From Bacteroidota bacterium (GTDB taxonomy: Bacteria > Bacteroidota > Bacteroidia > Chitinophagales > Chitinophagaceae), in assembly GCA_020161435.1 (NCBI GenBank), contig JAIUNV010000003.1, positions 452,567 through 516,566 on the forward strand: DNA of 64,000 nucleotides, given 5' to 3'. Shown here piece by piece: positions 39,509 to 52,810 of the stretch (its first letter is position 1; each line of letters starts with the position of its first letter). The notes under the pieces are model-generated. The model searched no databases. It saw only the letters and a list, made by a program, of their open reading frames with translations, and had not been told where the DNA came from. The translations under genes were made by a program, and so were the position numbers.

Positions 39509-39519
39509 ACACAACTGCA

Positions 39520-39556
39520 TGTACATTACCTACACTTAAGGTGTAGGTAATGTACA
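39520..39556. promoter_or_regulatory. 16-bp-arm palindrome upstream of precursor 1
   Basis: TGTACATTACCTACAC - TTAAG - GTGTAGGTAATGTACA, perfect arms. An identical copy lies upstream of precursor 4. A candidate operator, possibly of the Xre regulator at 41357-41638. Confidence 0.6.
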
Positions 39557-39711
39557 GTTTACATGCCTGCTCCGGTTATGATGAATGATTTTTTATATCG
39601 ACATTTAACCAACGCATCCATAGCACCAATCTGCAACCGTTAGCAATGGTATTGCAGTGTGTGATAGGATGGTCTTCCATTTTCCGCAGGAGTAGTGCCC
39701 TGTGGAAAAAA

Positions 39712-39758
39712 GCCCGGGAAGCACTCATTTGCAATGCATGGCAAATGCCCGGCGGCCC
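39712..39758 (+). promoter_or_regulatory. Conserved 5' leader RNA element, copy 1
   Basis: Outer stem CCGGG (39714-39718) with CCCGG (39748-39752), a bulge of AAGCACT, and an inner stem CATTTGC (39726-39732) with GCAAATG (39741-39747). In precursor 2 the inner stem is TTGGTTA/TAACCAA, so the pairing is kept while the bases differ. This is covariation supporting a real RNA fold. Confidence 0.65.
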
Positions 39759-39829
39759 AGTACCCTGTATGGCCATAAATACGAGGGTAATAAACCAATT
39801 TTAGAAACCGTTTTAAACTGGTAATAACC

Positions 39830-40036
39830 ATGGAAACAAAAAAAATGAGCCTCGCTACTGTTGCAGGCAAACTCAGCCGGGCTGAGATGAAAAATGTGAT
39901 GGCAGGTAACGATCAAACAGATGGCAGCATTGACAACCCCAAATGCCTACATAGTTGCGATACTGATGCCGACTGTGGTACAGACTGCCCAAAATGCAAA
40001 AAAGGTGCAACTGCTAACTTTTGCGAAATGAGTTAA
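39830..40036 (+). CDS. Cys-rich peptide precursor 1 (GG-Bacteroidales-type leader)
   Basis: A 68-residue precursor. The leader METKKMSLATVAGKLSRAEM continues KNVMAG and ends in Ala-Gly at 25-26, followed by Asn27, a double-glycine-type site for a C39 peptidase. The 42-residue core is acidic with six Cys at 39, 43, 49, 53, 56 and 65. The leader resembles the natural-product precursors of Bacteroidota (the TIGR04149 type). Six Cys and no other modification gene nearby suggest three disulfides. It is followed by a hairpin and by a TlpA-like thioredoxin gene. Export is probably by the C39 ABC transporter at 47060. Confidence 0.82.
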   Translation: METKKMSLATVAGKLSRAEMKNVMAGNDQTDGSIDNPKCLHSCDTDADCGTDCPKCKKGATANFCEMS

Positions 40037-40040
40037 CCTC

Positions 40041-40081
40041 AAGATGGGATTGTAAACAGCAATTGCTTACAATCCTATCTT
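40041..40081 (+). terminator. Hairpin between precursor 1 and its thioredoxin gene
   Basis: 15-bp arms AAGATGGGATTGTAA and TTACAATCCTATCTT (one G-U), followed by TTTATT. It begins four bases after the stop codon. It may be a partial terminator that keeps thioredoxin expression below that of the precursor. Confidence 0.65.
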
Positions 40082-40124
40082 TTTATTAAAGTTTATATAA
40101 CGAGATTTCAATATTTATAATACC

Positions 40125-41285
40125 ATGTCTCAGCGCACTTGGCTATATTACTGCATTTGCTTTGCGGTGAATATTGGCATTTCAAGCAATGTTATAGCTC
40201 AACAAAAAGCCTACCAGATAGAAGGGCATGCAAATGGTTTGAATGGCAAAAAACTGATACTATATATACCTGATACAACTGGTGTATATCAAAAAGATAC
40301 TTGCTTGATTACCAATAATCGATTTGCTTACAGTGGGAAGATACCACATAGCGTATTATGCTTCTTGAAGATGCCTGATGACTCAAATGCACTAGAATCC
40401 CGTCAGTTTTTTATTGACACGGGCAAAGCACTTGTAGAAATCACAAAAACCTATTTTGAATCCCCTAAAATATCAGGAAGCAAAACGGATTCACTATTTC
40501 AGCAATACTTCATCCGTAAAAACAACCTTAACATTGAAATAAAAAATAAAAGGAATTCGCTACAAGAGAGAGGCTTGTCTGACTCCTTGATAGATTCATT
40601 GCTTTCTCAAGATTACTTGTCTGTTATGCAATTAGCAATGGATGTAGTAAAAGCAAATACAAACAATGTGTTATCAGCATATTTATTACGCTATTACATG
40701 GATGATATTAACGATGTCACATTAGCTTCATTTTTCAACTCCCTGGATGCAACTATAAAAGCAACCTTTTATGGAAAAATGATAGAAAAAAGAATACAAG
40801 TTAGTAGCGGGGGCGTTGCGCCATTATTTGATGGCTTCACAATCGATAACGTGTATTATTCTTTAGAAAAAAACATCAAGGATGGAAAAGTTATTCTGTT
40901 GATGTTTTGGGCAAGCTGGTGCAAACCCTGTAGAGAAGAGATGCCTTATTTCTTGAATATGCTATCCAAATATAGTCATAACGGTTTTGAAATTGTGGCT
41001 ATCGCTAATGAACGTAGCAGTATAGATACATGGAAACAAGCTATAGAAAAAGATCACTCAAAACCCTTTATTCATCTGTTGCAACGAACAACTATACCAA
41101 AAGATGCGGGTGAAATGTATTCTGTAATGCCTATTCCTACCATCATATTAATTGACAGAAAAGGCATCATAAAATACAGAAAAACAGGTGGCCCATACAC
41201 AGGATTAGAAGATATTCTTTTATCTTGTTTAATTACTAATAACAAAATTGTCAATCAAAATCATCACAAAAAAGCCGTCAATTAG
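40125..41285 (+). CDS. TlpA-like exported thioredoxin, cassette 1
   Basis: A 386-residue protein with a signal peptide (about residues 1-25). A DUF4369-like beta domain is at about 27-130, then a helical linker, and a C-terminal thioredoxin domain with the redox motif WASWCKPC (around residue 263). TlpA/ResA proteins act in the periplasm, reducing or isomerising disulfides. Placement directly after a Cys-rich precursor suggests it handles that peptide's disulfides. Members in this family may also act on cytochromes, but the context favours the peptide. Confidence 0.85.
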   Translation: MSQRTWLYYCICFAVNIGISSNVIAQQKAYQIEGHANGLNGKKLILYIPDTTGVYQKDTCLITNNRFAYSGKIPHSVLCFLKMPDDSNALESRQFFIDTGKALVEITKTYFESPKISGSKTDSLFQQYFIRKNNLNIEIKNKRNSLQERGLSDSLIDSLLSQDYLSVMQLAMDVVKANTNNVLSAYLLRYYMDDINDVTLASFFNSLDATIKATFYGKMIEKRIQVSSGGVAPLFDGFTIDNVYYSLEKNIKDGKVILLMFWASWCKPCREEMPYFLNMLSKYSHNGFEIVAIANERSSIDTWKQAIEKDHSKPFIHLLQRTTIPKDAGEMYSVMPIPTIILIDRKGIIKYRKTGGPYTGLEDILLSCLITNNKIVNQNHHKKAVN

Positions 41286-41356
41286 GATGGCCAATACAAT
41301 TATTTGTGTACTTCCAGCATTGCTGCCATACCAGCAAAGCAAACAATTGTAAAGAC

Positions 41357-41638
41357 CTACCCATTAGAGGAAAGTGTTTCCGTATGTTGCGGGGGGGGCG
41401 TCTTCTTTAGTTCGGCTTCTATTTGCGCCACAAATTCGGCAGCTGACATATTTAATATAGGAGCCAGCCTTATAATGTCCGTCAGTTTAATATGATACAC
41501 CCCTTGCTCCATCTTATCTATGGCGCTTTTACTAATATTGAGAGATGCTGCCAGTGCCTCTCTTTTGAGTTTTGCTGAAATACGTGACCGACGTAAAATT
41601 GTTGCGGCTATTTGTTTCAGGATAGCATCGCTGTGCAT
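41357..41638 (-). CDS. Xre-family transcriptional regulator
   Basis: A 93-residue DNA-binding protein. The helix-turn-helix is in KREALAASLNISKSAIDKME (about 26-45), typical of HTH_3/Cro-type repressors. The C-terminal tail (KKTPPPQHTETLSSNG) is encoded across a G8 run at 41391-41398 that could slip. It is divergent from the VKOR gene, with two palindromes between them, so it may regulate the cluster. ATG 41638 is preferred; a longer frame upstream is unlike a leader. Confidence 0.8.
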   Translation of the reverse strand: MHSDAILKQIAATILRRSRISAKLKREALAASLNISKSAIDKMEQGVYHIKLTDIIRLAPILNMSAAEFVAQIEAELKKTPPPQHTETLSSNG

Positions 41639-41719
41639 GATTAAAAGTGTAAGGTGTATAGAGCGTAATAGCATAAATATAGGTGGTTTAAAAAAAAATT
41701 CGTTCACCACAATACTTTT

Positions 41720-41735
41720 TTTGACAAATGTCAAA
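41720..41735. promoter_or_regulatory. Palindrome TTTGACA-AA-TGTCAAA
   Basis: Perfect seven-base arms with a two-base centre, between the divergent Xre and VKOR genes. A candidate operator for Xre. Confidence 0.5.
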
Positions 41736-41737
41736 CC

Positions 41738-41758
41738 AACTGCAGGTAACCTACAGTT
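41738..41758. promoter_or_regulatory. Imperfect palindrome upstream of VKOR
   Basis: AACTGCAGGT - A - ACCTACAGTT, one mismatch. It shares ACCTACA with the 16-bp-arm palindrome upstream of precursors 1 and 4, so the same regulator may recognise all three. Confidence 0.45.
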
Positions 41759-41876
41759 AAGGTGTACATAAGCTACAGTTTTTGCATGCTTAAAAAGATT
41801 GTTGTATTAGTTATATGCCTGACATTCACAGTAGGTTATCAGCATCACTCCAGAACTGTGAAAATTGTTGCTTTGT

Positions 41877-43544
41877 ATGAACAAATTGACGACACACTTA
41901 CAACACCCAAATGTACAAGCTACCGACTGCCTGCTGCGGCTGCTCCAAGTGCCAGTACACAGCTTTACTGTAGAGCAGCAATTAGAAGAACACCCCGACT
42001 GGCCCAGCCTGCTCTGCATTAGCGATGCCCTGCACCAATGGCATATACCCCATCTGGCTGCAAAAGCTGCCGACCAACAATTGCCCGATACTCATTACCC
42101 CTTGTTGGCAGTAACCAATCATCCTGAGCGGCCCTTAGCCGTGGTAGTGGGGGTTCACAATGATGTGGTTCACTTTTACCAATACAGCTACCGCCAACAG
42201 CATCAGGAACCGCTGAAAGACTTTTTGCAACGCTGGACGGGTATTTACCTGATAGCCGAAGCCACCCCGCAAAGCGGCGACCCAGAATATGCTGCTGCTG
42301 CCCGCAAACGCCGCTGGCAACTGGCGCTGCCCATTACAGCTTTGCTGCTGGCCCTCACAGCTTTGGGCGGCTTGTGTTGGCCACGGCTGCAACACCTGAC
42401 AGGATCTGCGAACCTGTCAGGCGGCGGAGCCACCATTGCAGCCATCATCGCCATCTTTATATTGTACTTAGCAGGCCTTGCCGTTAGCCTCATGCTGCTG
42501 TGGTACGATATAGACAAACGCAACCCACTGCTGCAAAAAGTGTGTACCGGCCTTGTTAAAACCAATTGCAACGCCATCCTCAATAGCAGTGCCAGCAAAC
42601 TGTTTGGCTGGCTCAGCTGGAGCGAAATAGGCTTTGCCTATTATGCAGGTGGCCTATTGCTGATGGCCTTTCCCACCCAGGCCCCTTGGGCCTTGCAGTG
42701 GTTGGGCTTAGTGGGCGTGGCTGCCTTGGTGTACCCCATCTTCAGTATTTACTATCAGTGGCGCATTGCCAAGCAGTGGTGCATGCTTTGCCTTGCCGTG
42801 CAAGCTGTATTGGTGCTGCAAGGCACAGCCTTATGGATGGGCAATTACTTACCTGCATTATCGTTAGACACCCTCACTACATTCCTCATTCCTCAATCCG
42901 CATTCATCATTGCTACCGTTTACATTCTCCCGCTATTAGCTTGGCTCTTCCTCAAGCCCTGGTTGCTGCGGCACCAAACCGCTCTGCGGGAGCAGCGGGC
43001 CTACCGACGCCTCAAGTTTAACCCCGAAGTATTTACCAGCCTGCTACACAAGCAAAAAGCCATAGCCACCCCAACCAATGGGTTGGGTATTGTATTGGGC
43101 CCTGCCAATGCCCCGCATAAACTGGTGAAAGTATGCAACCCATACTGCGGGCCCTGCAGCAAGGCACACCCCAAAATAGAGCAACTGCTGCACCGCCACC
43201 CCAACCTGCAGGTCCAAATACTGTTTATGGTGCCCAATGTACCCGGCGAAAAATACCATACCGCTGCCAGCCACCTGATGGCCATAGCGCATACCGCTGC
43301 CGGGCAGGCGCAGGTGCAGCAGGCATTAGACGATTGGTACCTGCCAGAAACAAAAGATTATGAAGCCTTTGCCACCAAATACCCGCTGAACGGTGCCGTA
43401 GCGGCTGCTGCGCCAACTATTACCGCTATGGAGCAGTGGAGCAAGGCCAATGACATACGTTATACCCCCACCCTATTTTACAACGGCTACGAGCTACCGC
43501 CGGAGTACGATTTGGAGGACCTACCGTACTTTCTGCAGGAGTAG
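41877..43544 (+). CDS. Multi-domain VKOR protein: C39-like domain, VKOR and DsbA-like domain
   Basis: A 555-residue membrane protein that probably makes disulfides. Residues 1-130 look like a C39-peptidase fold without the usual DCGPxC nucleophile motif, so it is likely a non-catalytic docking domain. The VKOR domain (about 150-365) has several helices, the loop Cys pair 223 and 231, and the active CMLC at 302-305. The C-terminal thioredoxin-like domain has CNPYCGPC (CGPC at 424-427). VKOR passes electrons from a thioredoxin partner to quinone. ATG 41877 is chosen. Its last codons (TTTCTGCAGGAGTAG) also occur in the direct repeats of precursors 1 and 4. Confidence 0.88.
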   Translation: MNKLTTHLQHPNVQATDCLLRLLQVPVHSFTVEQQLEEHPDWPSLLCISDALHQWHIPHLAAKAADQQLPDTHYPLLAVTNHPERPLAVVVGVHNDVVHFYQYSYRQQHQEPLKDFLQRWTGIYLIAEATPQSGDPEYAAAARKRRWQLALPITALLLALTALGGLCWPRLQHLTGSANLSGGGATIAAIIAIFILYLAGLAVSLMLLWYDIDKRNPLLQKVCTGLVKTNCNAILNSSASKLFGWLSWSEIGFAYYAGGLLLMAFPTQAPWALQWLGLVGVAALVYPIFSIYYQWRIAKQWCMLCLAVQAVLVLQGTALWMGNYLPALSLDTLTTFLIPQSAFIIATVYILPLLAWLFLKPWLLRHQTALREQRAYRRLKFNPEVFTSLLHKQKAIATPTNGLGIVLGPANAPHKLVKVCNPYCGPCSKAHPKIEQLLHRHPNLQVQILFMVPNVPGEKYHTAASHLMAIAHTAAGQAQVQQALDDWYLPETKDYEAFATKYPLNGAVAAAAPTITAMEQWSKANDIRYTPTLFYNGYELPPEYDLEDLPYFLQE

Positions 43545-43560
43545 TGACCTGTGGAAAAAA

Positions 43561-43608
43561 GCCCGGGAAGCACTCTTTGGTTACACCATAACCAATGCCC
43601 GGCGGCCA
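43561..43608 (+). promoter_or_regulatory. Conserved 5' leader RNA element, copy 2
   Basis: Outer stem CCGGG (43563-43567) with CCCGG (43598-43602) and inner stem TTGGTTA (43577-43583) with TAACCAA (43589-43595), a five-base loop. The inner stem differs in sequence from copies 1 and 3, but pairs perfectly. It starts 16 bases after the VKOR stop. Confidence 0.65.
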
Positions 43609-43676
43609 ACCACCTCGTATGGCTCAAACTACCGGGGTAAACACCTATTTTTAAAACCGTTTAAATTGTACAAACA

Positions 43677-43895
43677 ATGGAAACAAAAAAAATGAGCCTC
43701 GCTACTGTAGCAGGCAAACTCAGCCGGGCTGAGATGAAAAATGTGATGGCGGGGAATTCATCTTTTGAAGATACTGGGGATGAAACAATTGAATGCAACG
43801 ATACTTGCCTGACAACAGCTGATTGTCCACGAGATAGAAAGTGTACAACAGGAACATGTGGTGGGAAATCAATCAAGGCTTGTTTCCTTTATTAG
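43677..43895 (+). CDS. Cys-rich peptide precursor 2
   Basis: A 72-residue precursor with the same 26-residue leader as precursor 1 (ending KNVMAG). The 46-residue core has Cys at 40, 44, 50, 56, 61 and 69. The first three Cys share the C-x3-C-x5-C spacing of precursor 1, and the rest differ. The leader DNA is nearly identical to precursors 1 and 4 while the core is unrelated, so the core evolves faster or was exchanged. It is followed by a hairpin and a thioredoxin gene. Confidence 0.82.
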   Translation: METKKMSLATVAGKLSRAEMKNVMAGNSSFEDTGDETIECNDTCLTTADCPRDRKCTTGTCGGKSIKACFLY

Positions 43896-43900
43896 TAATT

Positions 43901-43939
43901 AATGAATACTTCGACAAATGATTTGTCGAAGTGTTCATT
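43901..43939 (+). terminator. Hairpin between precursor 2 and its thioredoxin gene
   Basis: 19-base arms around ACTTCGACAAAT / ATTTGTCGAAGT, with a single central base and one G-U. It starts five bases after the precursor stop and ends 17 bases before the thioredoxin start. Confidence 0.65.
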
Positions 43940-43956
43940 TAATATTAAGATACTCC

Positions 43957-45327
43957 ATGCAACAAAAATTAATACTGATTTTTTTAAAAGTAACAGCCAT
44001 AATTCCACTATGGTCTATTTCATCATTTGGACAAAAGAATATAGATAATGTAATTATCAAGGGGAACATAGTCAATATTAGCAATCAAATTGAATTGGAG
44101 GATATGTCTGCAGTGGGAAGGATTTCCGCATCTAATCCTGAACGTTATTTTTTGCCAGATAGTCTTGGGAATTTTTCAATCAAAACACATGTAAAAAGTC
44201 CAGGATATTTTCGACTAGGCAGAAATATTATTTATTTGAGCCCTGGAGATAACATAAATGTACAAATCGACTTCAATCTTCCTGAAAAGGCAAAGTTTGA
44301 AGGGAGTAATTGGAAATTAAATGATTATTTAAAAAATACAGCCTTCCCAAAAGCAGGGTCCTATTGTGAATATTCTAGTTTAATAAAATCTACAGTTAAT
44401 GAGACTATTGACGCTTTCGTTGATTATGGCAAAAAAAGGCATCAAAGTTTATTAGCCCTGCCAGATGCTAGCCCTCTATTTATTGAGCTTGAAGAAGCCA
44501 GAATAAAAGCAGATATCATCAACAGTATAGTGAGTTTAACTTGGTTTTATCCAGAGAGACACAAGTTATCTATGGACTCGAGTAAACGCTTCCAACAAAC
44601 GTTTATGCCTCAAATTGGTAAACTAATAGAGCCGTTCATTAACAAATTCGTCAACAGTGACTATCTCGATCTTGTAGTTTATCAAAAAATTGCCGGGTAT
44701 GTAATCAAATACAATAAGCAAGACTCTGCTAGCACATCCTCTTTAACTATAAAAGAATGGATTACGGCTAGTTCAATTTTTGCAGAAATGAATTACCAGT
44801 ATGAAAATGCTGACTTTGAAAAGATAAATGATCGTATTAACCTAATAGTTAAAGAAGAATATCGTTACCCATTACTTGAATTTCTAAAGTCAAAATCAAT
44901 TTTCGCAAATGGGAGTCAAGCCCAAGATTTTGCAGCACTCAACATTAATAAAAAGTCGGTCAAATTAAGCGATTTAAAAGGTAAAGTCATCTTACTCGAT
45001 TTTTGGGCTACATGGTGTGGCCCTTGTATTCAAGCATTTCCACAAATTGAGGCAATTAAACAACACTTTATCAATGACAGTAACGTAGTCATTCAATCTG
45101 TTTCTATAGATGAGAATACAGCTAAATGGGAATCGGCAGTATCAAAATATAATCTTGGAAAAAATACTTGGATTATAAACAGGTATGCTATCCCTGAATA
45201 TCAATTGTACTCATTACCCCGTATTGTAATTGTAGATAAAAACTTCAGGGTGGTCTCATTTAGCGGTTTCGAACCGAGCGACAAGGAAGGATTAATTCAA
45301 TTCATTGAAAAATTATTAATAGAATAA
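43957..45327 (+). CDS. TlpA-like exported thioredoxin, cassette 2
   Basis: A 456-residue protein with a signal peptide and a long N-terminal domain, then a thioredoxin domain with WATWCGPC (around residue 350). The CGPC active site is the common thioredoxin form, and differs from CKPC, CIPC and CEPC in the other three cassettes. Coding sequence is clearly more AT-rich than the VKOR and ABC genes. ATG 43957 is preferred; a start at 43918 would overlap the upstream hairpin. It is followed by a terminator. Confidence 0.83.
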   Translation: MQQKLILIFLKVTAIIPLWSISSFGQKNIDNVIIKGNIVNISNQIELEDMSAVGRISASNPERYFLPDSLGNFSIKTHVKSPGYFRLGRNIIYLSPGDNINVQIDFNLPEKAKFEGSNWKLNDYLKNTAFPKAGSYCEYSSLIKSTVNETIDAFVDYGKKRHQSLLALPDASPLFIELEEARIKADIINSIVSLTWFYPERHKLSMDSSKRFQQTFMPQIGKLIEPFINKFVNSDYLDLVVYQKIAGYVIKYNKQDSASTSSLTIKEWITASSIFAEMNYQYENADFEKINDRINLIVKEEYRYPLLEFLKSKSIFANGSQAQDFAALNINKKSVKLSDLKGKVILLDFWATWCGPCIQAFPQIEAIKQHFINDSNVVIQSVSIDENTAKWESAVSKYNLGKNTWIINRYAIPEYQLYSLPRIVIVDKNFRVVSFSGFEPSDKEGLIQFIEKLLIE

Positions 45328-45356
45328 TCAGACATCATAACGATTGGTCAATGCAC

Positions 45357-45382
45357 ATGATCTACTACCAGATCATTTTTTT
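45357..45382 (+). terminator. Terminator after thioredoxin gene 2
   Basis: ATGATCT - ACTACC - AGATCAT followed by T6. It separates the second cassette from precursor 3. Confidence 0.75.
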
Positions 45383-45465
45383 GAAAACTTAAGCTGAAAT
45401 ACTTGGTACTCTAATGATAAGAGACCTGAAATCAACTTTTACTAAATCAATAAATATTAAACACC

Positions 45466-45693
45466 ATGGAAGCAAAAAGAATGAGCCTTGCTAATGTGCA
45501 GGGCAAACTCAGCCGGGCTGAGATGAAAGATGTATTGGCGGGAAATTCAGGGGATTCATCACTTGAATTTGAAGACGATTTAAAGCCAATTTGCACAGCT
45601 TGTACTAGTGATTCACAATGTGGTATCAAAGTATGCAGAAGTTCACCATCTTGCATAGAACTTAAGGTTTGTGCAAAGCCTCTTATTTGTTAA
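45466..45693 (+). CDS. Cys-rich peptide precursor 3 (divergent)
   Basis: A 75-residue precursor with a related but different leader (MEAKRMSLANVQGKLSRAEM, then KDVLAG). The 49-residue core has seven Cys (43, 46, 52, 57, 63, 69, 75), an odd number. One Cys must stay free, or pair with another peptide or the thioredoxin. It lacks the shared 5' leader element. The sequence is followed by a hairpin and its own thioredoxin gene. Confidence 0.8.
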   Translation: MEAKRMSLANVQGKLSRAEMKDVLAGNSGDSSLEFEDDLKPICTACTSDSQCGIKVCRSSPSCIELKVCAKPLIC

Positions 45694-45701
45694 TCCTATT
45701 G

Positions 45702-45735
45702 GGGAGTTTCATTCATTCTTATAAATGAAACTCCC
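45702..45735 (+). terminator. Hairpin between precursor 3 and its thioredoxin gene
   Basis: 12-bp perfect arms GGGAGTTTCATT / AATGAAACTCCC, eight bases after the precursor stop. Confidence 0.6.
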
Positions 45736-45799
45736 ATTATTCAGATGAGACAAGAAAAAAATCGGCAGTAAACGTATTCAAAATTATTAATATTCAACT

Positions 45800-46960
45800 T
45801 TGAAAAAATCAATAATATCTCTGGTTCTCTCTTTGAATTTTGCTATCTGCATTTCACAACCATTAGATTATATCATTGAGGGTTATGTAAGCAATGTAGA
45901 TTCTGGAATGATTTACATAGTGCCGGTGATAAATGAAGCAAAATATTACGGCCCTAATAGCATGAAAGATTCTGCAATAATAAAAGATGGATTATTCAAG
46001 TTTAGAAGAATACATAACAATAATAATACATATGCTTACAGGTTGTATATTCAAAGTAATATTTCCAGTGGGTCTACAGATTTTGTTTTCATTAATGGAG
46101 AGAATGTTTTTATAGAAATCGACTCGATTGATGAACACATTTCTCCAAAAATTGCTAACTCTACATATCAAAATGAAATAAAATATGAATACAATGATTT
46201 CTTTGAAAAATTTATTGTAGATGTAAATAGATATTTCGAATACGAAGAAGGCATTTACAATAAGTTTGATGGCAATATACCTAAAGAAATTGTTCTTGAA
46301 TTTGAAGCAAAGCAAAAGCTGATATCGCATCAGTCAGACTCATTATTTCAATTGTATGCAGAATTACATCCAAACTCTCATGTAACCTTATGGAAAATGA
46401 TTGAGAGACTCAAGAATATTGGGCATAACAGTTCTTACAGAAGCATTTTCAATAAGTTCCCTGTTGAAATTCGAAATTCACAAATAGGATTGATCTTTTT
46501 ACAAGATCTATATGCAAGTGAATTGCTTAGCATTAATTCGGTTTTTCCAGAACTTCAATTTCAAAATATACAGGAAGAAATTACAGTTATAGATAAATCT
46601 AAACTAGGGAGTTCATTTACCTTGGTTGACTTTTGGTTTACAGATTGTATACCTTGTAGAAAGCAGTTTCCAGAACTTAAGCGCTTATTCAAAATATACA
46701 GACAATATGGTTTTCAAATCATCGGAATTTCTATTGATGAAGAATCCAAAATTGACACTTGGCGCAATTTAATTCAGAAAGAGTCTCTCAATTGGCTACA
46801 CTTATTGGATAAAAGCGGTAAGACTACAACAAAGCTTGCAATCAACTCTTTCCCTACGAACTTCTTGCTAAACAGTGATGGAGTGATACTTAAAAAAAAT
46901 ATTACTATTTCGGACTTAGCAACATTACTGTTAGAGAGTTATAAAAAAATAGGCAAATGA
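45800..46960 (+). CDS. TlpA-like exported thioredoxin, cassette 3
   Basis: A 386-residue protein with signal peptide MKKSIISLVLSLNFAICISQ, a beta-rich N-terminal domain and a C-terminal thioredoxin domain with FTDCIPCRKQFPEL (about 275-290). The CIPC dipeptide is unlike the other cassettes, and the usual Trp before the first Cys is replaced (FTDC), so the redox potential may differ. The start codon appears to be TTG at 45800, because it begins the signal peptide. The gene is AT-rich like its neighbour. Confidence 0.82.
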   Translation: MKKSIISLVLSLNFAICISQPLDYIIEGYVSNVDSGMIYIVPVINEAKYYGPNSMKDSAIIKDGLFKFRRIHNNNNTYAYRLYIQSNISSGSTDFVFINGENVFIEIDSIDEHISPKIANSTYQNEIKYEYNDFFEKFIVDVNRYFEYEEGIYNKFDGNIPKEIVLEFEAKQKLISHQSDSLFQLYAELHPNSHVTLWKMIERLKNIGHNSSYRSIFNKFPVEIRNSQIGLIFLQDLYASELLSINSVFPELQFQNIQEEITVIDKSKLGSSFTLVDFWFTDCIPCRKQFPELKRLFKIYRQYGFQIIGISIDEESKIDTWRNLIQKESLNWLHLLDKSGKTTTKLAINSFPTNFLLNSDGVILKKNITISDLATLLLESYKKIGK

Positions 46961-47059
46961 TTGCTTTAAAGCTATTATCAAAAAAAAGCCTGTGCACGAC
47001 TATTAAGTCCAGTCATTTCATAATTCGAATGTTAGCTCTCAATAGTAATTATTCATCCC

Positions 47060-49273
47060 ATGCCCTTCCCCCTCTACCGCCAGCTCGATGCCATGGATTG
47101 TGGCCCTACCTGCCTGCGCATGGTGGCGCAGCACTATGGGCGTAGTGTAAGCTTAGAGTACCTGCGTAGCAAAACGGAGTATGGCAAGCTGGGTGCCAGC
47201 CTACTGGGCTTGGCCAATGCGGCAGAGGCGTTGGGCTTTCATGCAGTGGGGGCCAAGCTTACCCTGGAGCAGTTACTGCAAGAGGCGCCACTGCCCGCCA
47301 TCTTGCATTGGGATCAGCAGCATTTTGTAGTGCTTACACCGGCCACCAAAAAGGGGCAGGTGCAAATAGCCGATCCGGCCAAGGGGCTGCTGTGGCTTAG
47401 CCATGCACAACTGCAGCAGCACTGGCTCAGCACCCAAGAGGGCATGGAGGCCAAAGGCATTGCCCTGCTGCTGGAGGCTACACCCGCCTTGCATACCCAG
47501 CAAGAAGATGATGCTGCGGAGGAGCAAGCCGCCCCCAAGGTATTTGGCTGGTGGCACATGGTGCAGCAGTTGGGCAGGTACCGCCGCTACCTGCTGCAAG
47601 TGGGGCTGGGCCTGCTATTGGGCAGCCTGTTGCAGCTCATCTTTCCTTTTCTTACCCAAAGCCTGGTAGATACGGGCATCAACACCCGCAACCTCCATTT
47701 TATCCAAATTATTTTAGCGGCACAGCTTATGCTGCTGCTCAGCCAAACACTGGTAGAGTTCATCCGCAGCCGCATACTGCTGCATGTAAGCACACGGGTA
47801 AACCTGCAATTGCTGAGTGCTTTTTGGGCCAAGCTGCTGCGCCTGCCCATTCATTTTTTCGATACCAAGCACCCCGGCGATATTTTGCAACGCCTCAGCG
47901 ATCAGCAGCGGATTGAGCAGTTTCTCACCGGCGCTGCACTCAGTACCCTGTTTAGCCTTTTTAATTTGCTGGTGTTTTCGGTAGTGCTGCTGCAATACAA
48001 CGCTCAAATATTTATGATTTTTGCCGCAGGCAGTTTATTGTACTTTTTATGGATTCGCTTGTTTTTGCGTTTTCGGCGCCGGCTCGATTATCAGCGCTTT
48101 GCCATTATGGCCCGTGAAAGCAATGCCAGCATGCAATTGGTGTATGGGGTGCAGGAGATAAAGCTGAACAACGCCGAGCACAGTTTCCGCTGGAAATGGG
48201 AGGGCTTGCAGGCGGCGGTATTCCGGCTCAATTTCAAAAGCCTGTCGCTCAACCAGTATCAGCAGTTTGGTGCCTTGTTTATCAATCAGGGTAAAAACAT
48301 CCTCATCACTTTTTTGGTGGCGCAGCAGGTGGTGGAGGGCAAGCTAAGCTTGGGGGTAATGCTGGCGGTGCAGTACATTATTGGTCAGCTCAACGCTCCC
48401 ATTGAGCAGCTCATTGGCTTTACCCAGCAGGCGCAAGATGCCAGCATATCACTGGAGCGGATGAACGATATACAAGTGCTGCCCGATGAAGAACCGGCAG
48501 CGAAGCAATTTCAACACCGGCTACCGCAGGAGTACAGCATCCACATCAACAATCTCAGTTTTACCTATCCCGGGGCGGGCAATGAGCCGGTGCTACGCCA
48601 GCTATCGCTTACCATACCGGCACAGCAAACCACCGCCATAGTAGGCATGAGTGGCAGCGGCAAAACCACCCTGCTCAAGCTACTGCTTCGCTTTTATGAA
48701 ACGTACAGCGGCAGCATTACCATTGGCGCTACCGCTTTTAGCAGCATTAGCCCAAGGTATTGGCGCAGCCGCTGCGGGGTAGTCATGCAGGATAGCTATG
48801 TATTCAACGATACCATTCTCAAAAACATAACCGTAACCGAAGAACCGGTAGATATGGAACGGGTGTTGGAAGCCTGCAGAATAGCCAACATACTCGACTA
48901 CATAGAAGCCTTGCCACTTGGCTTTTATACCAAGCTGGGGGTCGAAGGGGTAGGCATGAGCGGCGGCCAGCGGCAACGCTTGGCGCTGGCAAGAGCGGTG
49001 TACAAGCAGCCGCAATTTATTTTTTTAGATGAAGCCACCAACTCGCTGGATGCCAACAATGAAAAAGTAATTGTAGAAAACCTGCAACGGTTTTTTGCCC
49101 ACAAGACGGTGCTGGTAGTAGCGCATAGGCTGAGCACGGTGAGGCATGCCCATAAAATAGTGGTGATGCACAACGGAGCCATAGCCGAAGAAGGCACTCA
49201 TGAAAGCCTCGTAAGCCTTCGGGGCCGATATTATGAACTGGTAAAAAACCAATTAGAACTTGGCAACGAATAA
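47060..49273 (+). CDS. Peptidase-containing ABC exporter (C39 protease)
   Basis: A 737-residue protein with an N-terminal C39 peptidase (1-135), a membrane domain (about 170-460) and an ATPase domain. The catalytic triad is visible: Cys14 (MDCGPTC), His88 (QQHFVVL) and Asp105 (ADPAKG). The ATPase has Walker A VGMSGSGKTTL, signature MSGGQRQR and Walker B FIFLDEATNSLD. Such exporters cleave leaders after Gly-Gly or related pairs and carry the core across the inner membrane. This is the natural processing and export protein for the four precursors. It overlaps the HlyD gene. Confidence 0.94.
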   Translation: MPFPLYRQLDAMDCGPTCLRMVAQHYGRSVSLEYLRSKTEYGKLGASLLGLANAAEALGFHAVGAKLTLEQLLQEAPLPAILHWDQQHFVVLTPATKKGQVQIADPAKGLLWLSHAQLQQHWLSTQEGMEAKGIALLLEATPALHTQQEDDAAEEQAAPKVFGWWHMVQQLGRYRRYLLQVGLGLLLGSLLQLIFPFLTQSLVDTGINTRNLHFIQIILAAQLMLLLSQTLVEFIRSRILLHVSTRVNLQLLSAFWAKLLRLPIHFFDTKHPGDILQRLSDQQRIEQFLTGAALSTLFSLFNLLVFSVVLLQYNAQIFMIFAAGSLLYFLWIRLFLRFRRRLDYQRFAIMARESNASMQLVYGVQEIKLNNAEHSFRWKWEGLQAAVFRLNFKSLSLNQYQQFGALFINQGKNILITFLVAQQVVEGKLSLGVMLAVQYIIGQLNAPIEQLIGFTQQAQDASISLERMNDIQVLPDEEPAAKQFQHRLPQEYSIHINNLSFTYPGAGNEPVLRQLSLTIPAQQTTAIVGMSGSGKTTLLKLLLRFYETYSGSITIGATAFSSISPRYWRSRCGVVMQDSYVFNDTILKNITVTEEPVDMERVLEACRIANILDYIEALPLGFYTKLGVEGVGMSGGQRQRLALARAVYKQPQFIFLDEATNSLDANNEKVIVENLQRFFAHKTVLVVAHRLSTVRHAHKIVVMHNGAIAEEGTHESLVSLRGRYYELVKNQLELGNE

Positions 49274-50600
49274 CCACGATACAGAAAGTCCGTTACAAGC
49301 CGCCCCGGCCGTGCATACCACACCGGCGATGGAAGATTCTTTTACGGCCTTGCTGAGCCACCGGCCACCGTGGTTGGTACGCTGGGGTATCGTGTTGTTT
49401 GGGGCATTGCTGGGCTTACTACTGGCCGCAACCTGGTTCATTCACTATCCCGACAGGGTGCAGGCTACGGGTACGCTTATGGCTACCCATTTGCCGCAAG
49501 AGCTGGTGGTGCGTACCGATGGCCGCCTGCAGCACCTGTTTGTGTCCGAAGGCGATAGTGTGCCACAAGGCCGGCTGATAGCTGTCATGCAAAGCACTGC
49601 AAATTATGAGCACCTGTTGCGGTTGCAGCAAATGACGGATAGCCTGCACCATGAAATGGCCAATGCCAACCCTACAGCAGCGCTGCATTGGTACCATCAA
49701 TTCCAAGAAATAGCGGGCAGCTTTCGCATGGGTGAAGTGCAGGCCGATTTTCAACAACTGATGGCTGCGTTACAAACCTTTACACAATACATGCAGCAGG
49801 GGTACTATCAGCAAAAAATGCAGATGCTTCGGCAAGACATTGCTTTTTTACAAGCACAGCAAAAAATACTGCAACAGCAGCAGCAACTTACCCAACAAGA
49901 TATTGCCCTGGCAGCCGACAATTTTGCTGCCAGCAACAAATTGGCCAACCAGCAGGTAATAGCGCCGGTGGAGTTTCGCAACGAGCAGAGCAAATGGGTA
50001 AACAAACAACTGCAAGGCCCACAAGTTTCGGCAGCACTGCTCAACAACAACATGCAGGCCCACGATAAGCAAAAAGAAATAGCCCAACTGAACAACGAGA
50101 TAGCCCAACAAACAGAAATTTTCAAACAGGCACTGCAGCAGTGGCAGGCTAAGCTGGCCGCATGGCAGCAGCAATACCTGATAGTGGCCCCCTGTAATGG
50201 GCGGCTGTCGCTGAACGGCTTTTTGCAAGCAGGTGCCAACATGCAGCGTGGCCAATCCATTGGGAGTGTAGTGCCGCCCAATGCGGGCTATTACGTAGCG
50301 GTCACGCTTTCGCAATACAACTTTGGCAAGCTAAAAATTGGTCAACAGGCAAGGCTGCGTTTTACCGCCTACCCGTATGAAGAATTTGGTACTGTAGCTG
50401 CCCAACTTACCGGCATTAAAACCCTGCCCACCGATAGTGGCTATATGGGCAAATTAATGCTGCCCAATGGCCTTGTTACGGATAAGCATATTGCCCTCAG
50501 CTACCGGCATGGCCTGCAAGCGCAGGTAGACATTGTAACCGATAACAGGCGCCTGCTTCAGCGGCTGCTGGATGGCATTGATAAAGCAGTACGGAGATAA
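49260..50600 (+). CDS. HlyD-family secretion adaptor
   Basis: A 446-residue adaptor with an N-terminal cytoplasmic stretch, one membrane helix (WGIVLFGALLGLLLAATWFIH, about 42-62), a coiled-coil region rich in Gln (about 120-300), and a beta-barrel end. It would link the ABC exporter to an outer-membrane channel, none of which is nearby. A TTG start at 49260 overlaps the exporter stop by 14 bases; ATG 49329 is an alternative. Confidence 0.88.
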   Translation: MATNNHDTESPLQAAPAVHTTPAMEDSFTALLSHRPPWLVRWGIVLFGALLGLLLAATWFIHYPDRVQATGTLMATHLPQELVVRTDGRLQHLFVSEGDSVPQGRLIAVMQSTANYEHLLRLQQMTDSLHHEMANANPTAALHWYHQFQEIAGSFRMGEVQADFQQLMAALQTFTQYMQQGYYQQKMQMLRQDIAFLQAQQKILQQQQQLTQQDIALAADNFAASNKLANQQVIAPVEFRNEQSKWVNKQLQGPQVSAALLNNNMQAHDKQKEIAQLNNEIAQQTEIFKQALQQWQAKLAAWQQQYLIVAPCNGRLSLNGFLQAGANMQRGQSIGSVVPPNAGYYVAVTLSQYNFGKLKIGQQARLRFTAYPYEEFGTVAAQLTGIKTLPTDSGYMGKLMLPNGLVTDKHIALSYRHGLQAQVDIVTDNRRLLQRLLDGIDKAVRR

Positions 50601-50768
50601 CTCATTTGTTATGTGCTAAAAATATCCTCATGCATCTTGCTCTCTGTAAAGTATTGCTGTCTTCATCCCTCATAGCAGACGTACAAATATGCATTGTAAC
50701 ACTTTGCACTCATCACTTTATTGAACAAATGAAAGCGACTATCAGAAGCATCTACAAAACAACCTTTC
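50601..50768. other. Gap after the HlyD gene
   Basis: No gene seen; AT-rich. It leads into the second copy of the long direct repeat. Confidence 0.5.
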
Positions 50769-50782
50769 ACAACACAACTGCA

Positions 50783-50819
50783 TGTACATTACCTACACTT
50801 AAGGTGTAGGTAATGTACA
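50783..50819. promoter_or_regulatory. 16-bp-arm palindrome upstream of precursor 4
   Basis: Identical to the palindrome at 39520-39556. Confidence 0.6.
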
Positions 50820-50972
50820 GTTTACATGCCCGCTCCGGTTATGATGAATGATTTTTTATATCGACATTTAACCAACGCATCCATAGCACCAATCTGCAAC
50901 CGTTAGCAACGTATTGCAGTGTTTGATAGCATGGTCTTCCATTTTCTGCAGGAGTAGTGCCCTGTGGAAAAA

Positions 50973-51019
50973 GCCCGGGAAGCACTCATTTGCAATGCAT
51001 GGCAAATGCCCGGCGGCCC
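50973..51019 (+). promoter_or_regulatory. Conserved 5' leader RNA element, copy 3
   Basis: Outer stem CCGGG (50975-50979) with CCCGG (51009-51013); inner stem CATTTGC (50987-50993) with GCAAATG (51002-51008). Same fold as the copies before precursors 1 and 2. Confidence 0.65.
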
Positions 51020-51088
51020 AGCACCCTGTATGGCCAAAAACTAACGGGGTAAACACCTATTTTAAAACCGTTTAAATTGGCAAAAACC

Positions 51089-51280
51089 ATGGAAACAAAA
51101 AAAATGAGCCTCGCTACTGTAGCAGGCAAACTCAGCCGGGCTGAGATGAAAAATGTAATGGCGGGAAATGACTCATCTCTTGAGCCTGGTGATGGCAAAT
51201 GCGTTGAAGATGGAAAAGATTGCCCCGTTTTTGGAAAATGCTGTAACGAGTGTAAAGCAACTTTCAAGTGTGGTAAATAA
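51089..51280 (+). CDS. Cys-rich peptide precursor 4
   Basis: A 63-residue precursor with the same leader as precursors 1 and 2. The 37-residue core has Cys at 38, 45, 51, 52, 55 and 61, including an adjacent pair. ATG 51089 aligns with the starts of the other precursors; an in-frame TTG at 51077 is ignored. A hairpin and a thioredoxin gene follow. Confidence 0.82.
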   Translation: METKKMSLATVAGKLSRAEMKNVMAGNDSSLEPGDGKCVEDGKDCPVFGKCCNECKATFKCGK

Positions 51281-51305
51281 CATCCACAATTGTTCCCGAC
51301 ACTAA

Positions 51306-51337
51306 TAGCAATGATCAGCCTATGCTGGTCATTGCTA
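51306..51337 (+). terminator. Hairpin between precursor 4 and its thioredoxin gene
   Basis: 14-bp arms TAGCAATGATCAGC / GCTGGTCATTGCTA (one G-U) with a four-base loop, 25 bases after the precursor stop. Confidence 0.6.
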
Positions 51338-51369
51338 ATTATAATTCATCAATACGCTATTCACAGCAA

Positions 51370-52548
51370 ATGCGAACACTAATCAATCATTGCATTTATT
51401 GTATTTTCCTTTTTTTATCTCTTTCAACGGGGGCGCAATCGGGCACATTTTATGCTCAAATATCAGGTAGTTTTTCAGGCCTTGATAGTGGAACTGTTCA
51501 AATTTTATCGGAAGATGCTGATGACACTTTATGTCAATCTGTAATACTTGCAGGGCATTTTAAAATTCAACATCAGTTTGCTACAGCCAAGCAATATTTG
51601 TGGCGGATAACACCCGGTAACTGGCATTTTAAAGCATTTGTAGAACCAGGCAATAGCACATTACATATAGATACAACCGGTGCAAAAAGAAACGGTAAAG
51701 GTGTAAATGACCCCAATGCTTGGGCACTTATTTGGCAGGTGGAGCAAAGCGGCACACCTATGGCAACTGACTATAGCAGATACCTGCAACAAACCCGGCA
51801 GCAATGGTTTAGGGAACAATTGCTAAAGGCAATGGCTCAACAAGACATAGCAGTAAATAAAAAAAACTACACCCGGTTGATAGATTCTCTACAAAAAGAA
51901 GCCCAACAAACTCAACTTCTTTGGATAGAGCAATTTATGACAACCAAACCTGACGTACCATCAGCGTCCTTTATCATCTTACAATACATCATGCAAGCAA
52001 TCCAACCCGATTGGACTGTTTGCAACCGTTGGTTCCATCAATTGAAAGTTGATGAAACGCCAACATATTATTACCAACAATTGAAAGAAAAATTGCTGGC
52101 GCAGCACAATCAATCAGCTGGTGCAATGATGCCTGATCTCCGTTTACGCCAAGCAAATCATCAACCATTCTCTTTTAGTTCACTACAAGGCCAATACGTA
52201 TTATTGGATTTTTGGGCCAGTTGGTGTGAACCATGTAGAAAAGAAATTCCTGCCTGGAAAAAAATCTATGAAAAATACCGGCCTCAAGGTTTAGAGATAG
52301 TGGGTATATCAGGCGACAGATATGATAAGGACTGGCGAAAGGCTTTAGCCAAAGAAAAAATGCCTTGGATACAACTGATAGACTCCTTCCCTTCAAAAAA
52401 TCAAAGCGCCATGCTGTCTGATTATTTTGGTATTCGGCTCATTCCTCATTACATTTTACTTGATAAAACCGGTAAAGTTCTGTTGTCCACTGATGATCCC
52501 GCTCTAATCAGACAAAACATTACTCAACTCATAGAGAAAAAGGATTGA
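51370..52548 (+). CDS. TlpA-like exported thioredoxin, cassette 4
   Basis: A 392-residue protein with a signal peptide (about 1-23), a DUF4369-like domain and a thioredoxin domain with WASWCEPC (around residue 285). The motif differs from the other three cassettes. It follows precursor 4 and is the last intact gene of the island. ATG 51370 is preferred; 51322 gives a longer, less signal-like start. Confidence 0.84.
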   Translation: MRTLINHCIYCIFLFLSLSTGAQSGTFYAQISGSFSGLDSGTVQILSEDADDTLCQSVILAGHFKIQHQFATAKQYLWRITPGNWHFKAFVEPGNSTLHIDTTGAKRNGKGVNDPNAWALIWQVEQSGTPMATDYSRYLQQTRQQWFREQLLKAMAQQDIAVNKKNYTRLIDSLQKEAQQTQLLWIEQFMTTKPDVPSASFIILQYIMQAIQPDWTVCNRWFHQLKVDETPTYYYQQLKEKLLAQHNQSAGAMMPDLRLRQANHQPFSFSSLQGQYVLLDFWASWCEPCRKEIPAWKKIYEKYRPQGLEIVGISGDRYDKDWRKALAKEKMPWIQLIDSFPSKNQSAMLSDYFGIRLIPHYILLDKTGKVLLSTDDPALIRQNITQLIEKKD

Positions 52549-52560
52549 AGTAATCGTATC

Positions 52561-52658
52561 ATCCCATGCCCTTTCCCCCACTACCGCCAGCTCGATGCCA
52601 TGTACATACGCTATACCCCAACCTATTTTACAACGGCTACGAGCTACAACCGGAGTAA
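52561..52658 (+). pseudogene. Recombination scar joining ABC exporter start to VKOR end
   Basis: The first ~40 bases match the start of the ABC exporter gene (47056-47096: ATCCCATGCCC, CTACCGCCAGCTCGATGCCATG). The next ~55 match the end of the VKOR gene (43452-43509: ACATACG, CTATTTTACAACGGCTACGA). The junction is at a shared ATG (52600). The result is a 30-codon frame from 52566 to 52658 with no likely function. It marks the loss of a former second copy of the cluster. Confidence 0.8.
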
Positions 52659-52810
52659 GATTGGGATGTCTTCAATTAAACAATCAGTACTCCGCTATTT
52701 CGAAGATTTCGAAAAATAGAAAACGAGTGATATCTAACTGCACTTTGCCTTGTCTAATCCTTACTCAATAGTTGCCTTTACCTACTTCCTTATTCATCAT
52801 TCCCCATTCA

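Follow-up and report, generated by a model that had tools for sequence, protein, structure and literature searches.

A cysteine-rich peptide island of Bacteroidota with a C39-like-VKOR-DsbA fusion that may oxidize its peptides before export

Results

We analyzed a 64,000-nucleotide stretch of contig JAIUNV010000003.1 from a Bacteroidota bacterium of the family Chitinophagaceae (hereafter the window, numbered from its first letter; genome 4.19 Mb), in which an island of about 39.5-52.7 kb encodes small Cys-rich precursor peptides, TlpA-like thioredoxins, a C39 exporter with an HlyD-type adaptor, and one protein that joins a C39-like, a VKOR and a DsbA-like domain. That the island peptides are disulfide-stabilized secreted peptides, mostly with three disulfides, is well supported by their sequences. 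The best explanation of the island as a whole, which we regard as fairly likely, is that the fusion captures the leader and oxidizes the core on the cytoplasmic face of the membrane, that cleavage and export follow, and that the TlpA-like proteins provide quality control or protection. We also lean, with some reserve, toward the broader proposal that leader-directed disulfide formation before export, by a dead C39 domain joined to an inverted VKOR-DsbA unit with quinone as the acceptor, may operate inside the reducing cytosol and be widespread in Bacteroidota.

Precursors and cysteine parity

The island carries four precursors.

39830-40036, plus strand: precursor 1, leader of 26 residues ending in AG, core of 42 residues with 6 Cys
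43677-43895, plus strand: precursor 2, core of 46 residues with 6 Cys
45466-45693, plus strand: precursor 3, core of 49 residues with 7 Cys
51089-51280, plus strand: precursor 4, core of 37 residues with 6 Cys

The leader is identical over 26 residues in three of them and 77% identical in the fourth; the cores differ and are unrelated. Read from the sequence, the leader follows the double-glycine-type pattern (L-12, S-11, E-8, M-7, V-4), with AG replacing GG. The same general pattern defines NF047798 (leader_Chryseo, 'bacteriocin-like protein'), a family that is limited to the leader and describes no machinery; the four window precursors scored 14.4-14.8 bits against it, below its 23.5-bit cut-off, and one precursor of a related locus (L138) scored above the cut-off.

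Candidate cores were collected from 61 related loci (41 in the family and 20 elsewhere in the phylum) and a few named records, using search patterns that required a minimum Cys count and no particular parity, so that these precursors are pattern-based candidates. The Cys count was even in 106 of the 112 non-redundant cores and exactly six in 71 (p ~5e-25), and the counts of other residues in the same cores, used as controls, were even in 43-67%.

The initial annotation of this DNA had seen no modification enzyme, and the wider survey agrees: clustering of the neighbors of the 61 loci gave no recurrent family of that kind, by which we ruled out a hidden modification enzyme, and the closest radical S-adenosylmethionine (SAM) gene lies about 130 kb from the island on the same contig. 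Weak, sub-threshold matches to the TIGR04149 leader model in some relatives, with none among the window's four precursors, would fit radical-SAM-type ribosomally synthesized and post-translationally modified peptides, or lanthipeptides, whose enzyme is encoded elsewhere. Given the lack of a recurrent enzyme family of such type in the 61 loci, the lack of a radical SAM gene near the island and the even-Cys rule, we consider this very improbable. The even-Cys rule, an intact oxidase and exporter, and the absence of a recurrent modification enzyme from the loci surveyed thus bear out the earlier proposal of disulfide-stabilized secreted peptides. Its expectation that every Cys would be paired suits the three precursors with six Cys and does not suit precursor 3.

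The fusion protein and the exporter

The proteins expected to act on the precursors are the following.

41877-43544, plus strand: C39-like - VKOR - DsbA fusion, six predicted transmembrane helices; C222/C230, CMLC 301-304, CGPC 423-426 (residue 1 = codon at 41880)
47060-49273, plus strand: peptidase-C39-containing ABC exporter (PCAT); C14, H88, D105, Walker A and signature all present
49260-50600, plus strand: HlyD-type adaptor

The genome has one C39 peptidase, one VKOR and one DsbD, and a search of it for DsbB found none. The first ~130 residues of the fusion matched exporter C39 domains in profile comparison (hhalign probability ~97%) as well as the PCAT and ComA structures, and a fold comparison of the fusion model (pLDDT 90) placed PCAT1 among its best matches. 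No Cys is conserved in this domain among 31 fusion sequences; the catalytic Cys motif of the exporter falls outside the profile match, and the exporter His is not retained. By profile and model, then, the N-terminus is a C39 fold that has lost its catalytic motif. HlyB carries a dead C39 domain of the same type, and because of this resemblance it is reasonable to suppose that the domain of the fusion is probably a leader-binding module.

The remainder of the fusion appears intact. It matched VKOR (PF07884, E=1e-15) and has the four redox Cys and the Ser expected of that family: C222, C230, C301, C304 and S289 of the VKOR part, and C423 and C426 of the DsbA-like part, are invariant in the 31 sequences and present in 22 more. 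A VKOR-DsbA fusion had been recognized initially, and it is indeed present; its C39-like domain and its predicted action on the cytoplasmic face had been missed. A phylogeny of VKOR proteins noted that Bacteroidetes VKORs carry an unidentified extra N-terminal domain (PMC4555120), and our literature search turned up no account of a C39-VKOR fusion that matures peptides.

Predicted orientation of the fusion and order of steps

Both the model and hydropathy gave six membrane helices for the fusion, one more than solved VKOR-DsbA proteins have. Lys and Arg together numbered 13-23 on the side of the C39-like domain, active site and DsbA-like domain and 0-3 across the membrane in each of the 31 fusions, and 10-19 versus 0-2 on the same sides in the 22 further fusions; per residue, using the segment lengths of the window protein, the contrast is about sevenfold. 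In 22 unfused VKORs of the phylum, Lys/Arg averaged 2.50 on the loop between the second and third transmembrane helices (TM2-TM3) and 0.14 on the loop before CxxC, whereas in the 53 fusions the values were 0.28 and 2.19, respectively. The Synechococcus VKOR also showed the canonical pattern of periplasm-facing VKOR-DsbA proteins, in which the TM2-TM3 loop is positively charged and the loop before CxxC is not; 49 of the 53 fusions were clearly opposite and none was canonical. Since this distribution is opposite to that of most of the unfused VKORs, the whole redox unit (C39-like domain, VKOR redox Cys and DsbA-like domain) most likely faces the cytoplasm, as judged from charge and the model.

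Because the fusion is predicted to be active on that face, oxidation would probably precede export. We infer the following steps. The precursor would be made with its constant double-glycine-type leader, which the catalytically dead C39-like domain of the fusion may then bind. The fused DsbA-like domain (CGPC) would oxidize the core Cys on the cytoplasmic membrane face, and the VKOR loop pair and CxxC would relay the electrons to quinone. The C39 exporter would cleave the leader after AG and, together with HlyD and an outer-membrane channel whose gene lies elsewhere, export the oxidized core. Where present, the cognate periplasmic TlpA, probably kept reduced by the single DsbD of the genome, would rearrange wrong disulfides or protect the producer.

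A more conventional order would have the peptides exported reduced, after which the DsbA-like domain would oxidize them in the periplasm with help from the cognate TlpA-like proteins, the first helix not crossing the membrane and the VKOR core oriented as usual. VKOR-DsbA proteins and their solved relatives normally act in the periplasm, and the TlpA-like proteins have export-type N-termini, both of which suit such an order. The charge pattern of the 53 fusions, opposite to that of unfused VKORs, argues against it, as does the first helix, which is hydrophobic in all 31 sequences and modelled as a helix; moreover, a periplasmic C39-like domain would meet peptides that have already lost their leader. 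We therefore think the conventional order rather doubtful.

Several points weigh against oxidation before export by the fusion. In a reducing cytosol, the oxidized core must leave quickly or resist reduction. The topology comes from a predicted number of helices, read with the positive-inside rule, and depends on the extra first helix, and homology is the only ground for leader binding by the C39-like domain. The odd Cys count of precursor 3 is common to two close relatives. An exporter lies within the fetched stretch in just 24 of the 36 family loci that reach 14 kb or more (with HlyD as well in 21), and the VKOR reading frame is broken in two close relatives of the same genus, L045 and L046. 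Finally, the analysis is computational throughout, and none of the peptides has a known activity.

The exporter frame of L046 is also split; the interruptions in L045 and L046 are assembly errors or decay.

The TlpA-like partners

Each precursor of the island is followed by a TlpA-like gene.

40125-41285, plus strand: TlpA-like 1, DUF4369 and thioredoxin domains, CKPC, hydrophobic N-terminus
43918-45327, plus strand: TlpA-like 2, CGPC; a start at 43957 is likelier
45800-46960, plus strand: TlpA-like 3, CIPC
51322-52548, plus strand: TlpA-like 4, CEPC; a start at 51370 is likelier

The initial annotation had proposed one thioredoxin per peptide, and the pairing is real. By leader pattern, the 41 family loci hold 69 candidate precursors, 52 of which are directly followed by a TlpA-like gene (53 when a frameshift is allowed), and several of the unpaired ones sit at the end of a contig or locus. 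The genome has 20 Thioredoxin_8 proteins, four of them directly after a precursor, and with ~3,700 genes we estimated the chance of such a neighbor at ~0.5% for each precursor. Chance pairing was ruled out by at least 52 pairs for 69 precursors against 20 Thioredoxin_8 genes in the genome. The partners show the CxxC, cis-Pro and export signal of TlpA/ResA-type proteins: CxxC occurs in 52 of 52 and a hydrophobic N-terminus in 47 of 52, and CxPC with cis-Pro is invariant in the 21 that were aligned. They are probably periplasmic, and many related loci lack them.

We rejected coevolution of core and TlpA beyond shared descent: the correlation was strong overall but driven by close orthologues, and without L045, L046 and L071 it was weak (Pearson p ~0.006, Spearman p ~0.07). 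Because the signal weakens in this way, we claim for precursor and TlpA co-inheritance alone.

The TlpA-like proteins had initially been counted with the disulfide machinery of the island. As its oxidase they are poorly supported, because loci of groups f5 and f24 showed no TlpA partner and the TlpA-like proteins carry CxPC, a site usual in reductases and isomerases; the likely oxidase is the VKOR fusion. It is more likely that the TlpA-like proteins are isomerases/reductases or self-protection factors than an oxidase. As a proposal about the TlpA role only, and one compatible with oxidation by the fusion before export, each may be a cognate self-protection factor that reduces and inactivates its own peptide in the periplasm of the producer. 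The position of one TlpA per peptide, usual for immunity genes, would agree with this, as would the co-inheritance of the pair, the divergence of the window TlpAs to 24-28% identity behind constant leaders, the pointing of CxPC and DsbD to a reductant, and the f5 and f24 loci that do without a partner. On the other side, TlpA is missing from f5 arrays that hold about ten precursors or more, an isomerase would give an identical pattern, and bacteroidetocin producers lack immunity, their thiol oxidoreductase not being protective (PMC6671954). We keep self-protection as a tentative possibility.

In two loci (L055:6457-8814 and L056:10432-12849), a precursor is followed by a related protein of ~800 residues instead of TlpA; that of L055 had no Pfam match.

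Conservation across Bacteroidota

Within the family, 44 of 299 genomes encode the fusion, as do 41 of 396 in a phylum-wide sample; scanning genome contigs with the fusion as query gave four loci only. Among the 20 loci elsewhere in the phylum, TlpA pairing was present in groups f3 and f10, and none was seen after the precursors of the f5 and f24 loci, which keep the fusion and precursors. Because TlpA is absent after precursors that retain the fusion, TlpA pairing is an addition to a conserved core of fusion, precursors and exporter. The island is a conserved system and not a local accident.

In two f5 loci (L127 and L129), a single fusion and a single exporter are surrounded by about ten to twelve distinct precursors, and TlpA is missing.

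Relation to known systems

The closest known system is that of the bacteroidetocins, proposed as class IIf bacteriocins (Coyne et al. 2019, PMC6671954), in which a C39 exporter accompanies a thiol oxidoreductase gene that full activity requires, and no immunity gene is obvious (PMC6671954). Like the island, it combines a small Cys-rich peptide of Bacteroidota, a double-glycine-type leader and a C39 exporter, and the island likewise has an exporter and a thiol oxidoreductase beside a Cys-rich peptide. The bacteroidetocin leader has 15-16 residues and the first described members have four Cys (PMC6671954), whereas the island leader has 26 residues and its cores 6-7 Cys. Compared by description, bacteroidetocin loci have a separate five-TM protein and thiol oxidoreductase, and the island has one C39-like-VKOR-DsbA fusion, HlyD and a TlpA per peptide. 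The oxidoreductase pairing that the initial annotation considered unusual is therefore already known beside a C39 exporter in Bacteroidota (PMC6671954); the general idea is not new, and the differences lie in the fusion and the way it faces, in the six-Cys cores and in having one TlpA for each peptide.

In Gram-positive loci such as those of pediocin PA-1 and sublancin, a C39 exporter is accompanied by a dedicated extracytoplasmic thiol-disulfide enzyme for a disulfide peptide. They resemble the island in this pairing; unlike it, their oxidoreductases are separate, and they are not known to have a VKOR fusion or a C39-like recruitment domain. For the orientation, the nearest examples are the cytoplasm-facing VKOR of Aeropyrum pernix (Hibender et al. 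2017) and an engineered inverted VKOR (Hatahet and Ruddock 2013). As they are cited in PMC12453122 and PMC5471842, both have a VKOR core that forms disulfides on the cytoplasmic side; the fusion described here would couple that fold to a leader-binding-type domain and one set of peptides.

The peptides are most likely bacteriocin-like. They might instead be signals or surface-active factors, which their lack of a known activity would allow and which an XRE gene and operator-like palindromes adjoining the peptide genes could suggest. However, the precursors resemble bacteriocins in joining strongly varying cores to a constant leader and in forming large arrays, and related leaders are annotated as bacteriocin-like, so we hold a signaling role to be unlikely.

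If leader-directed oxidation by the fusion is correct, disulfide formation joins the steps of peptide maturation that are steered by a leader, an unusual route, and it would explain how disulfide-rich peptides are made in Bacteroidota, a phylum with members reported to be without general disulfide machinery. Leader, fusion and even-Cys rule together offer a key for finding, phylum-wide, a large and so far little-described class of secreted peptides with six Cys.

Layout, regulation and cassette duplication

The gene order is precursor 1, TlpA1, XRE regulator (minus strand), the fusion, precursor 2, TlpA2, precursor 3, TlpA3, C39 ABC exporter, HlyD, precursor 4 and TlpA4. All parts named in the initial annotation (four precursors, four TlpA-like proteins, C39 exporter, HlyD and VKOR-DsbA) were found close to where it had placed them; besides the N-terminal domain of the fusion, it had passed over the XRE regulator, the operator-like palindromes and the repeated 5' regions. 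Searching the genome for precursors beyond the four gave insignificant matches only, none convincing. The remaining features are as follows.

39520-39556, no strand: 37-bp palindrome TGTACATTACCTACACTTAAGGTGTAGGTAATGTACA 5' of precursor 1, candidate XRE operator; zero chance matches expected, core also in L045 and L046
39690-39829, plus strand: 5' region of precursor 1, conserved hairpin with 5 covarying pairs and the final bases of a copied VKOR 3' end
41357-41734, minus strand: XRE/HTH_3 regulator, open frame; the real start is possibly internal
41745-41778, no strand: palindrome variant between the divergent regulator and VKOR genes
43539-43676, plus strand: 5' region of precursor 2, hairpin shared, stem sequence different
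50783-50819, no strand: second 37-bp palindrome, 5' of precursor 4
50951-51088, plus strand: 5' region of precursor 4, hairpin shared, VKOR 3' end copied
52570-52666, plus strand: scar, a copy of the exporter 5' end adjoining a copy of the VKOR 3' end

The palindromes share the core CTACACTTAAGGTGTAG, which stands 5' of precursors 1 and 4 and, as a variant, beside the regulator, and recurs in both L045 and L046; they are likely operators. In the 5' region common to precursors 1, 2 and 4, the hairpin stem varies among the copies, and five pairs are kept through two-sided changes; an Rfam search gave no meaningful match. Copies of the VKOR 3' end also stand 5' of precursors 1 and 4, and in L089 fragments of the VKOR C-terminus precede two precursors. 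Together with the scar, these copies and fragments suggest that the cassette may have been duplicated from the junction of VKOR and precursor 2.
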